A DNA stretch of 33,669 nucleotides from Chloroflexota bacterium (lineage in GTDB: Bacteria; Chloroflexota; UBA6077; SHYK01), in NCBI GenBank assembly GCA_035652535.1, contig DASRDP010000126.1, positions 1 through 33,669 of the forward strand, given 5' to 3'. A model generated the notes under the pieces. That model saw only the letters and a list, made by a program, of their open reading frames with translations, made no database searches and had not been told where the DNA came from. A program made the position numbers and the translations under genes. Below, one piece after another: positions 4,317 through 7,426 of the stretch. The number at the start of each line of letters is the position of its first letter. The stretch's first letter is position 1.

Positions 4317-4967
4317 TTAGAGGGCAATGAGGCCGCGTCGGTAGGCCAGGGCGACGGCCTCGCTGCGGCTGGCCGCCCCGAGCTTCGCGAGAATCGATCC
4401 GACGTGGAACTTGACCGTGTGCTCGCTGATGCCGAGGCGCTGAGCGATCGCCTTGTTCGGCAGGCCCTGGGCGATAAGGGCCACGACCTCCAGCTCCCGC
4501 CGCGTCAGGAGGTCGCCGTCGACATCTTCGGGAGGCCCGGAATGCGCCGCGCCTAACGCGCCAGGCGCGAGGGCAGCGTCAAGGACGACGAGCCCGCGCG
4601 CCACGGACCGAACGGCCTCCGCCACCTCATCCGCCGTCGAGTCGGGGAGCAGAAAGCCGCGTGCCCCGCGCCGAATGAGCGCGGACAGGTCGGCGCCTGT
4701 CGAGGCCGATCCCACCAGGACGATCGGGGTCGCGGTGTCCGAGTCGCTGGATGGGATCCCGCCGCTCGGACTGGGCTCGTCGCTCCATTCGAGGAGCACG
4801 ACGTCAGCGTCGAGGGAGCGTGCGAGGGCGACGAGGTCGTCGGCGGGTGTCCCCTCGCCGACGACCTCAAGATCGTCCAGATCCGCCAGAAGTCCCCGCA
4901 ACCCGGCCCGCACGACGGGATGGCGGCCAGCCACCACCACGCGGATCGGCCGGTGGGGATCGCTCAT
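4317..4967 (-). CDS. LuxR/NarL-type transcription regulator with degenerate receiver domain
   Basis: A 216-residue protein with a receiver-like N-terminus (about 8-120) and a C-terminal LuxR helix-turn-helix (about 150-212: LTRRELEVVALIAQGLPNKA, then ISEHTVKFHVGSILAKLG). The HTH is complete and should bind DNA. The receiver has lost the residues needed for phosphorylation. The usual Asp-Asp pair in ADDH is AGRH (residues 13-16), the phosphoacceptor Asp is Glu60 (VVLLEWSDE), and the conserved Lys after GARGFLL is Pro. It therefore probably works without a kinase, perhaps locked on by the Glu or controlled by ligand or protein. The ATG at 4967 overlaps the upstream protease stop in an ATGA, implying translational coupling. 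It is the last gene of a three-gene operon with two proteases. Confidence 0.88.
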   Translation of the reverse strand: MSDPHRPIRVVVAGRHPVVRAGLRGLLADLDDLEVVGEGTPADDLVALARSLDADVVLLEWSDEPSPSGGIPSSDSDTATPIVLVGSASTGADLSALIRRGARGFLLPDSTADEVAEAVRSVARGLVVLDAALAPGALGAAHSGPPEDVDGDLLTRRELEVVALIAQGLPNKAIAQRLGISEHTVKFHVGSILAKLGAASRSEAVALAYRRGLIAL

Positions 4968-5590
4968 GCCACTACCCGAACCCGCGCCGCGGCCGCGTGC
5001 CTGGCAGCGATGAACCGCTGGACGGCACGCGTTGGGACGGCCAGGGCAAGCCCGCCGGGCATCACGACGTTTGGGATGCCCACGACGCGGCCCGAGCTGT
5101 CGGCGAGGGCGCCGCCCGAATTCCCCGGGCGGAGGACGATCGCGGTGCGAACTGGGTTCTCGGCGCCGGGCGCTGTGACGACGACGCCCATGGTCGCGAC
5201 GTTCCGCTCGCCCAGCGGGTTTCCGATCGCGAGGACCAATTCGCCGGTCCGCAGGTCGGCCGAGTCTCGAACGGCGGCAGGATTCCACGGGAGGGGAACC
5301 GCGACCTCCGGCTCGAGCAGGGCGAGATCGAGAGCGGTCGAGCGGCGGGTGACGCGAGCAGGAATACGGCTCCCGTCGGCCAAGATCACCTGCGCGAATG
5401 GCCCCGGCGCGACGTGGTAATTCGTGACGATCGCGCCTGCCTCGGTCCACACGACTCCCGAGCCGGACGTTTCACGCGAGCCGCGCACCATCACCACACT
5501 GCGCTGGACGGCTTCGATCACGGAGGCCAGGTCGGCGGCAAGCGACTCGCTCCTCGATTGGGCTTCGACCGCGGTGGTCATGGCCGTCAC
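4964..5590 (-). CDS. Trypsin-like serine protease (HtrA-type catalytic domain, no PDZ)
   Basis: A 208-residue protein consisting of only a chymotrypsin-fold protease domain. The triad is intact: His59 (TNYHV), Asp88 (TALDLALL) and Ser158 (RPGNSGGAL). No signal peptide or membrane helix precedes it; the N-terminus is a short amphipathic stretch, so a cytoplasmic location is likely, unlike classical DegP. The frame opens with GTG at 5590, which overlaps the upstream HtrA stop as GTGA. An ATG at 5581 with GGGAG 8 nt upstream is an equally good start. It ends in an ATGA overlap with the LuxR-type regulator. The tight coupling suggests the three products act together, possibly in regulated proteolysis. 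Confidence 0.88.
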   Translation of the reverse strand: MTAMTTAVEAQSRSESLAADLASVIEAVQRSVVMVRGSRETSGSGVVWTEAGAIVTNYHVAPGPFAQVILADGSRIPARVTRRSTALDLALLEPEVAVPLPWNPAAVRDSADLRTGELVLAIGNPLGERNVATMGVVVTAPGAENPVRTAIVLRPGNSGGALADSSGRVVGIPNVVMPGGLALAVPTRAVQRFIAARHAAAARVRVVA

Positions 5591-6507
5591 TCCCGCTCGC
5601 CGGGCGTGACGCTCAGGTCTCGGACCTCGCCGCCTCGAAGCAGCCGCAGGGTGACGTGCTTGCCGACGAGATCGGCGCCGAGGGCGGCCTGCAAGGCCTC
5701 TGGATGGGTCACGGGGCGATCGTTCACAGCCAGGAGAACGTCGCCGAGGAAGAGTCCGCCGCGGTCGGCCGGGCTCCCGGGCTCCACATTCAGCAGGAGC
5801 AAGCCGGTCTGCTGGTCGACGTGCGCCTTCTCCCGCAGCGCATCGGGGACCTCGATAGGACGGGAAGTGACGCCAAGATACGCGCGGCGGATCCGCCCGT
5901 GGGCGACGAGCGCATCGACGATCCCACGGACGACGGCGGTGGGCAGGGCGACGGACTGGCCGCCCGCGAGGTGCGAGCTATTCATACCCATGACTCGGCC
6001 CGACGCATCGACGATGGGTCCGCCGGAGTATCCGGGGTACAGGGTGAGATCAGCGCGGAGGTAGCTGTCGATGGCGCCGCCGCGCATGCTTCGCCACGAG
6101 CCGCCCACCGCGCTGATGATCCCGAAGCTGGCGCTCGTGGCGCCGGACGCGGTCCGCCCGATGGCGAGCGCGAGGCTGCCAACGCGAGCGCTCTCCGCCG
6201 GCGCCAGCTCGGCGGGACGCCCGGCCGCGGAAGCCGGGCGGAGGACCGCAACATCGCTGCCCGGATCCCGGCCGATCAGCGTCGCGCCGATTCGGTGGCC
6301 GCCGGAGGTTACGAGCGAGATCTCATCGTGCCGCTCGATGACGTGATCGGCCGTGACGACGATGCCTCCCTCGGGCCAGACGATGCCGGTTCCGGGGACG
6401 CGACGGCGCGCGTCGACCCCGACGACGGATTGGGACGCGCGCTCGACGGCGTCGGCCAGGTCGGCCGAGAGAGCGGCGAGCAGGTTGGCATGTTCTTCAG
6501 CGCTCAT
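5587..6507 (-). CDS. HtrA-like serine protease with C-terminal PDZ domain
   Basis: A 306-residue S1C protease. The catalytic residues are His55 (TADHV), Asp85 (GSDVAVL) and Ser161 (YPGYSGGPI). A PDZ domain spans about residues 208-303 (YLGVTSRPIEV, GLLLLNVEPGSPADRGGL, GDVLLAVNDRPV). I set the start at the ATG at 6507 because AAAGGAGA lies 8 nt upstream; an in-frame extension to 6594 has no support. There is no signal peptide or N-terminal anchor, which is unusual because most HtrA proteins act outside the cytoplasm. It is the first gene of the operon and overlaps the next protease. The 166-bp gap to the divergent SDR gene must hold both promoters. Confidence 0.9.
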   Translation of the reverse strand: MSAEEHANLLAALSADLADAVERASQSVVGVDARRRVPGTGIVWPEGGIVVTADHVIERHDEISLVTSGGHRIGATLIGRDPGSDVAVLRPASAAGRPAELAPAESARVGSLALAIGRTASGATSASFGIISAVGGSWRSMRGGAIDSYLRADLTLYPGYSGGPIVDASGRVMGMNSSHLAGGQSVALPTAVVRGIVDALVAHGRIRRAYLGVTSRPIEVPDALREKAHVDQQTGLLLLNVEPGSPADRGGLFLGDVLLAVNDRPVTHPEALQAALGADLVGKHVTLRLLRGGEVRDLSVTPGERE

Positions 6508-6673
6508 GTCGAATGTCTCCTTTGAACTGCGCCCGAGGCCTCGTGGCGACTGATGAGAGCATACGATCGGGCGCCACGCGAGCCATCGCCACAATGGGGA
6601 GATTCGGTCCTGCCCGTTCGACCAGGTCTATGATGTCGCCGAGCAGATCTCGAGCGATGGAGGGGACGAGCGC

Positions 6674-7426
6674 ATGACGAACCGCCTGGTAAACAAGGTC
6701 GCGATCATCACCGGAGCGGCGAGCGGACAGGGGCGCGTTGCCGCGGAGTTTTTCGCGCGTGAGGGCGCCACGCTGGTGCTGGCGGACGTCGATTCCGAGG
6801 GACTGGAAGAGACACGGGCGCTGGCTCGGAAGGCTGGGGGCGACGCCGCGCTCTTCTCGGGAGACCTGGCGCAGGAGGAATCAAACCGGGCACTCATGGC
6901 CATGACGATCGATCGGTTCGGGCGAATCGACGCGCTCTTCAACGTCGCCGGGCTCGTTCGCTTCGGCTCGGCGCATGAGGTCAGTCTCGAGGACTGGAAC
7001 TTCGTGATGCTCCACGAGCTGACCATCACGTTCCTGGCATGCAAACACGCGTTAGGACGGATGATGGCGCAGCGCAGCGGGTCAATCATCAACATGTCGT
7101 CGGTGTCCGGGCTGTTCGGCTCGCCGCGCCACGCGGCCCACGCCGCGACGAAAGCAGGCATCGCGGGTCTGACCAAGCAGATGGCGGTGGATTATGGGCC
7201 CTATGGAATCCGCGTCAACGCGATCGCCCCGACCCAGATCGCCTACGCGTCGGGCCAGCGGCGAATCGCCGCGCAATCCCAGATGCGTGCGCCCACCGAG
7301 GTGCCGCTGGGGCGGCACGCGACGCCCGAGGACACGGCGCACTGCGCGGTGTACCTGGCGTCTGACGAATCGAGCTTCGTGACGGGCCAGGTGCTGGTGA
7401 TCGACGGGGGCGCGACCGCGCGTTGA
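6674..7426 (+). CDS. SDR family oxidoreductase with His in place of the catalytic Tyr
   Basis: A 250-residue classical short-chain dehydrogenase/reductase. Visible motifs are the Rossmann TGAASGQG (residues 13-20), the NVAG motif (90-93), the catalytic-Ser region NMSSVSG (140-146) and the cofactor-proximal IRVNAIAP. The normal YxxxK is HAATK: His156 sits where the catalytic Tyr belongs, 13 residues after Ser143 and 4 before Lys160. Codon 156 is CAC, one transition from TAC. ADVD after the second strand suggests NAD(H) preference. The change may weaken or alter catalysis. It is divergent from the protease operon and convergent with the amidohydrolase. Its substrate is unknown. Confidence 0.88.
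   Translation: MTNRLVNKVAIITGAASGQGRVAAEFFAREGATLVLADVDSEGLEETRALARKAGGDAALFSGDLAQEESNRALMAMTIDRFGRIDALFNVAGLVRFGSAHEVSLEDWNFVMLHELTITFLACKHALGRMMAQRSGSIINMSSVSGLFGSPRHAAHAATKAGIAGLTKQMAVDYGPYGIRVNAIAPTQIAYASGQRRIAAQSQMRAPTEVPLGRHATPEDTAHCAVYLASDESSFVTGQVLVIDGGATAR

Follow-up and report, generated by a model that had tools for sequence, protein, structure and literature searches.

The window analysed here, a stretch of 33,669 nucleotides from a Chloroflexota bacterium, represents one of the 168 contigs of a 4.45-Mb genome and carries on its reverse strand three neighbouring genes that we designate A, B and C. Gene A (5587..6507, − strand) encodes an HtrA-type serine protease of 306 amino acids with a Trypsin_2 domain and a C-terminal PDZ domain and without an export signal, and an AAAGGAG sequence lies upstream of its ATG at 6507. 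Gene B (4964..5590, − strand) encodes an HtrA-like serine protease without a PDZ domain, of 208 amino acids from GTG 5590 or 205 from ATG 5581. Gene C (4317..4967, − strand) encodes a NarL/FixJ-type regulator of 216 amino acids that combines a pseudo-receiver with a GerE/LuxR helix-turn-helix (HTH) domain. All three frames are open and follow one another in the order given by an earlier, sequence-only reading of this DNA, which had also described a 4-nt overlap at each junction. The ATGA shared by B and C is solid, whereas the GTGA shared by A and B hangs on the GTG start of B. Homologues of B align to ATG 5581, three codons past GTG 5590, where methionine is invariant (alignment column M4), and the alignment makes ATG 5581 the better supported start; with this start, a short gap and no overlap separates A from B. 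Neither overlap is kept elsewhere, as the spacing ranges from −32 to 226 nt between A and B and from −28 to 183 nt between B and C in the first loci compared.

Apart from A, B and C, each neighbouring gene is found at 11 or fewer of the 95 loci described below. The lack of a kinase noted earlier for the window agrees with this, as neither a kinase nor any other gene is conserved beside the trio. We rejected a tRNA-linked island, since the window contains no tRNA, and an anti-phage defence system, since PADLOC returned only weak matches through shared domains (RT-Protease_XI for the protease domain and CARF3 for the HTH).

Linkage across Chloroflexota

A-like genes occur in 141 of the 400 genomes of our sample of the phylum (E 1e-60). 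After removal of duplicate A sequences from a collection that included the best 80 of 558 relatives, 95 distinct A loci were left. At 80 of them a C-like regulator is encoded on the same strand within 2.5 kb; with the exception of L138, an ordinary response regulator that was left out, these regulators (79/80) are of the pseudo-receiver type, so that C is linked to A at 79 of the 95 loci. The genes of the trio are thus kept together across Chloroflexota; neighbours that part in related genomes would have spoken against the sequence-only reading. By script, the gene orders are A-B-C at 37 loci, C-A-B at 28, A-B at 13, C-A at 9, A-C at 6 and A alone at 2, and inspection by eye assigned L063 and L123 to C-A-B as well. 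That these partners recur in two different arrangements argues against chance or simple hitch-hiking.

The seed set of this survey consisted of 30 stretches, chosen by the strongest matches to B across 101 genomes. With the window included, A and B stand together in 25 loci, and C adjoins them in 21. When these 25 loci, picked through B, are set aside, C remains linked at 58 of 70 A loci (hand tally), and a hand reading of positions in the 101-genome set places C next to A in 34 of the 38 genomes that bear A. A contig scan with B alone found no relative; a scan with the A alignment did. B is present at 79 of the 95 A loci, and several genomes contain A and C without B. The conserved core is therefore A plus C, and B is more dispensable. 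Several of the loci without C stop soon after A or B. At one of these (L041) the contig ends, and a C with the C-terminal tail characteristic of the family opens another contig of the same genome (G028).

Two proteases and a pseudo-receiver regulator

Pfam assigns Trypsin_2 plus PDZ to A and Trypsin_2 only to B, in agreement with the single PDZ domain of the window's A and the lack of one in the window's B. The B sequence is long enough to accommodate a PDZ domain at 33 of 79 loci, and B often lacks the domain. Both catalytic triads had been described as intact. In the window they consist of H55/D85/S161 (A) and H59/D88/S158 (B), and the triad is present in every A (95/95) and every B (79/79) of the loci examined. 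Neither protease of the window shows a signal peptide or transmembrane segment by N-terminal hydropathy, which bears out a second claim of the same reading; C has no signal peptide either. Measured as the mean Kyte-Doolittle value over 17 residues near the N-terminus, with a cut-off of 1.6, hydropathy stays below the cut-off in 94/95 A and 77/79 B. Homologues starting further upstream might have restored a signal peptide; the longest plausible starts yield none, and only L143 rises above the cut-off, marginally. A strongly hydrophobic N-terminal stretch is found in 12 of 17 other HtrA loci of the phylum used as controls, two loci being counted twice. Three of the controls (L067, L210 and L215) belong to a second HtrA-like group without such a stretch, with an initial motif resembling LDAYSxxVVxVVDKV.

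Not every Deg protease is exported, and A and B both lack the signal peptide or anchor seen in DegP and DegS. They also depart from the GNSGG sequence around the catalytic serine. The residue before this serine is usually Asn in HtrA proteases; in A (residue 160) it is Tyr in the window (YSGG) and Phe in 87/95 loci, and in B it is Asn in 50/79 and His in 21/79 (together 71/79). The aromatic side chain at this position of A may change the oxyanion hole. The AlphaFold model of the A monomer has a pLDDT of 95.6, and its best structural neighbours are MucD, DegP and DegQ, peptide complexes of DegS and AlgW being listed as well. A thus folds like MucD, DegP and DegS, of which the solved complexes include C-terminal hydrophobic peptides. 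At 26 of 79 loci (hand count) B ends in Ala-Ala, regardless of the preceding residues or the presence of a PDZ domain. This end is a possible degron or PDZ ligand; as it is not general, we rejected it as a shared signal of B.

C had been read as a DNA-binding regulator, and Pfam indeed identifies its GerE HTH domain. The receiver half of the window's C has no Pfam match, being too diverged for the model; curated NarL-like profiles align across the full length of the protein, so that C joins a GerE HTH to a receiver fold as NarL/FixJ regulators do. Its AlphaFold model (pLDDT 89.7) has LiaR, ChrA, VraR, NarL and DesR as best structural neighbours. A histidine kinase, the usual partner of such regulators, is not among the conserved neighbours of the 95 loci. 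In the window, C lacks the acidic pair and has Glu at the position of the phospho-Asp and Pro at that of the Lys, as expected for the non-phosphorylatable regulator that had been proposed. The full phosphorylation set (two acids, Asp and Lys) is found in 0/79 C and in 53/60 NarL-type controls, the latter being rows taken from the window's own genome (L002, L203 and L204) and related genomes, with L168 and L206 representing one gene. The first acidic position is occupied by Ala, Ser or Gly in 79/79 C, the Lys is kept in 3/79 and the Thr in 5/79; the phospho-Asp is kept in 59/79 and an acid at the second acidic position in 22/79, mostly in the C-A-B group. The lack of a full set in every C fits the definition of a pseudo-receiver, a receiver fold without key phosphotransfer residues, and replacement of the phospho-Asp by Glu is discussed as a possible phosphomimic in the same source (PMC12632262). 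Judged from its residues, C is a pseudo-receiver NarL-type regulator.

Predicted operator and promoter of gene A

Counts of spaced 4-mers in the sequences that precede the genes revealed that CCTR-N10-YAGG is over-represented before A in both gene orders. A symmetrised matrix of the corresponding 18-bp dyad scores at least 8 bits upstream of A in 88 of 93 loci (the 95 loci minus two with less than 100 bp of upstream sequence) and is missing at 5; reversed sequences gave 2 such loci and single-base shuffles 1–4. As the matrix was iterated on the same loci in which the matches were counted, the fair test is cross-validation between gene orders. The matrix trained on A-B-C loci recovered 34 of 37 C-A-B loci (dinucleotide shuffles: mean 1.0, maximum 4), and the matrix trained on C-A-B loci recovered 36 of 42 A-B-C loci (mean 0.8, maximum 4). 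The predicted operator precedes A in both orders, even where C stands upstream of A. In the C-A-B order it sits between C and A, and control of C itself by the operator is consequently not clear there. Three loci of one genus (L040, L044 and L045) consist of A-B and the operator without an adjacent C and away from contig ends; each of these genomes holds a second locus, A-C, which suggests that one regulator may serve two proteases.

In the window, predicted operator site 1, CCTGGTCGAACGGGCAGG (6609..6626, − strand), begins 119 bp before the ATG of A and is the only perfect match in the 4.45-Mb genome. Predicted site 2, TCTCCCCATTGTGGCGAT followed by G (6585..6602, − strand), is weaker and overlaps the −35 position. 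A predicted −10 element, TATGCT (6558..6563, − strand), places the predicted transcription start at about 6551, the start being set 12 bases past the position at which the −10 box begins. Relative to this start the two sites are centred at about −66.5 and −42.5. The arrangement recurs in other loci, in which a second, weaker operator copy with GATG at its end lies about 24 bp downstream of site 1. Of 85 loci, 49 have GATG at the −35 place (at most 2% at other offsets) and 46 have TANNNT at the −10 place (1–11% at other offsets), and 46 of the 47 TANNNT boxes found begin at +62 to +64 relative to the dyad. The lux box of LuxR is likewise centred at −42.5 in the account of PMC3376562, and the shared position of the predicted site points to an activator layout. 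Proximity of the dyad to the promoter would also suit a repressor of the protease operon that stress inactivates. We regard this alternative as improbable: both sites lie upstream of the −35 position or touch it, none covers the −10 element or the start, and the promoter has no good −35 hexamer, as expected if it depends on an activator.

Matches of at least 14 bits within the 95 loci, obtained with a matrix trained on these same promoters, number 69 in the promoter regions and 15 in the remaining sequence of about one megabase. We rejected a wider regulon, since the window's genome holds 8 matches with at most one mismatch on both strands and 9 matches to the reversed pattern. Among 17 operator-like sites inspected in relatives, most lie inside or beside unrelated reading frames, and one (L261, genome G054) precedes an A-C pair. 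On the opposite strand of the window, a short-chain dehydrogenase-like gene (6674–7426, +) begins 48 bp from site 1, and the operator could act on this divergent gene too; no such gene was found to recur at the other trio loci (95 loci). A palindromic operator copy that precedes a short-chain dehydrogenase-like frame (L253, 3005–3924) echoes this neighbour; its genome (G008) has no strong match to A.

The operator is the strongest link between the regulator and the protease, and it had escaped the sequence-only reading. We infer that the operator is bound by C and that C acts as an activator.

C-terminal tail and proposed circuit

The last six residues of the window's C, RGLIAL-COOH (residues 211–216; 4320..4337, − strand), follow the pattern G-phi-phi-x-phi, which ends 79 of 79 C and 4 of the 60 NarL-type controls. 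The final residue is Leu in 67, Val in 6 and Ile in 6 of the 79 proteins, and the third-last is hydrophobic in all 79. Class II PDZ ligands have hydrophobic residues at positions 0 and −2 and a free choice at −1, a pattern that the tail of C matches in sequence. The PDZ domains of DegS and AlgW read hydrophobic C-terminal ends, and the PDZ domain of A belongs to this type. The GLIAL tail had been guessed to be a PDZ ligand, and the comparison of C with the controls strengthens this guess. In the AlphaFold model the tail block has a pLDDT near 91, which suggests that it may be packed and argues somewhat against a free tail.

Taken with the operator, these features lead us to propose, with a probability of about one half, that the trio is a self-contained cytoplasmic proteolysis homeostat in which C activates the A promoter and A restrains C through its PDZ domain. 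C would act as a phosphorylation-independent NarL-type activator, its dimer binding the tandem operator of the protease promoter, with sites near −66.5 and −42.5, and switching on A and B, as well as C itself in the A-B-C order. The PDZ domain of A would recognise C by its exposed hydrophobic C-terminal end, and A would degrade or sequester C, so that the protease level would limit its own synthesis. Misfolded cytoplasmic proteins, by filling the PDZ domain and active site of A, would spare C and thereby raise the amount of protease. Binding of the tail by the PDZ domain and the negative sign of the feedback of A on C are both presumed here, and the trio would serve as a stress-sensing or regulated-proteolysis unit, much as the sequence-only reading had suspected.

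It is also conceivable, if less likely in our view, that C drives the protease promoter through the operator but is left alone by the proteases, the pseudo-receiver sensing a small ligand or protein and the tail being part of the HTH dimer. The operator and the linkage would be explained equally well, and the tail, which follows the final HTH helix (residues 201–210) and is confidently modelled, could complete a dimer interface. Nevertheless, the NarL-type controls share the same HTH and rarely end in this manner, and such a scheme gives no reason for the constant pairing with a PDZ protease. Adjacency, the conserved tail as a docking site and the lack of a kinase would fit a scheme in which C becomes active only when the protease cleaves or unlocks it, for instance by releasing the HTH from the pseudo-receiver, with A as sensor and C as output. 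We give this little credence, as the linker between receiver and HTH (residues 141–150, pLDDT about 53) is not conserved in sequence, and the sole operator found is on the protease gene, which under activation by cleavage would create a runaway loop.

The proposed homeostat can be set against several known systems. DegS and AlgW, like A, are HtrA proteases with a PDZ domain, and their peptide complexes are among the structural matches of A. Through this domain they read hydrophobic C-termini and steer a transcriptional response (sigma-E); they are periplasmic and cut an anti-sigma factor. A, by contrast, lacks an export signal, and the only regulator linked to it is a DNA-binding pseudo-receiver protein. 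ClgR of Actinobacteria activates protease genes and is itself a substrate of ClpP through its C-terminus. ClgR is not of the NarL type and ClpP is an ATP-dependent barrel protease, whereas the partner of the regulator in the trio is an ATP-independent HtrA protease. NarL, LiaR/VraR and DesR share the whole-protein fold and HTH with C; unlike them, C is devoid of phosphorylation residues, has a bare hydrophobic C-terminus and is partnered by an HtrA protease. In Mycobacterium, an HtrA-like gene, pepD, adjoins the response-regulator system MprAB that controls it, and PepD feeds back on the stress network (PMC3062566). MprA is paired with a kinase and PepD works outside the cytoplasm, whereas the trio has neither kinase nor export signal. 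BldM, WhiI, ChxR and HP1043 resemble C in having a response-regulator fold without a working phosphorylation site, yet none is presented with a protease partner in the main text of PMC12632262, in which “protease” and “proteoly-” are absent.

The component families are thus known, and the principle that a protease feeds back on its own activator is known from ClgR-Clp. The sequence-only reading did not recognise the layout as described, and we likewise found no account of the gene pair in the open literature searched, a body that leaves most subscription papers and preprints outside. In that literature, an unexported HtrA protease, a pseudo-receiver, a dedicated operator and a ligand-like tail are undescribed as a linked unit.

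More tentatively, and at less than even odds, we suggest that the trio is a phylum-wide kinase-free signalling unit in which the sensor partner of a NarL-type pseudo-receiver is no longer a histidine kinase but a cytoplasmic HtrA protease: the PDZ domain of this protease would read the tail, misfolded proteins would compete for it, and the freed regulator would activate the protease gene through the tandem operator. If true, two-component systems would have a parallel in this “protease-regulator” system, and there would be an answer to how one class of pseudo-receivers gets switched off. Since the module comes with a conserved partner, a candidate tail for docking and an operator of predicted position, the question is open to direct tests that need one promoter and three small soluble proteins. 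The module also suggests that HtrA proteases have a role in the cytoplasm in this large phylum, most of which is uncultured.
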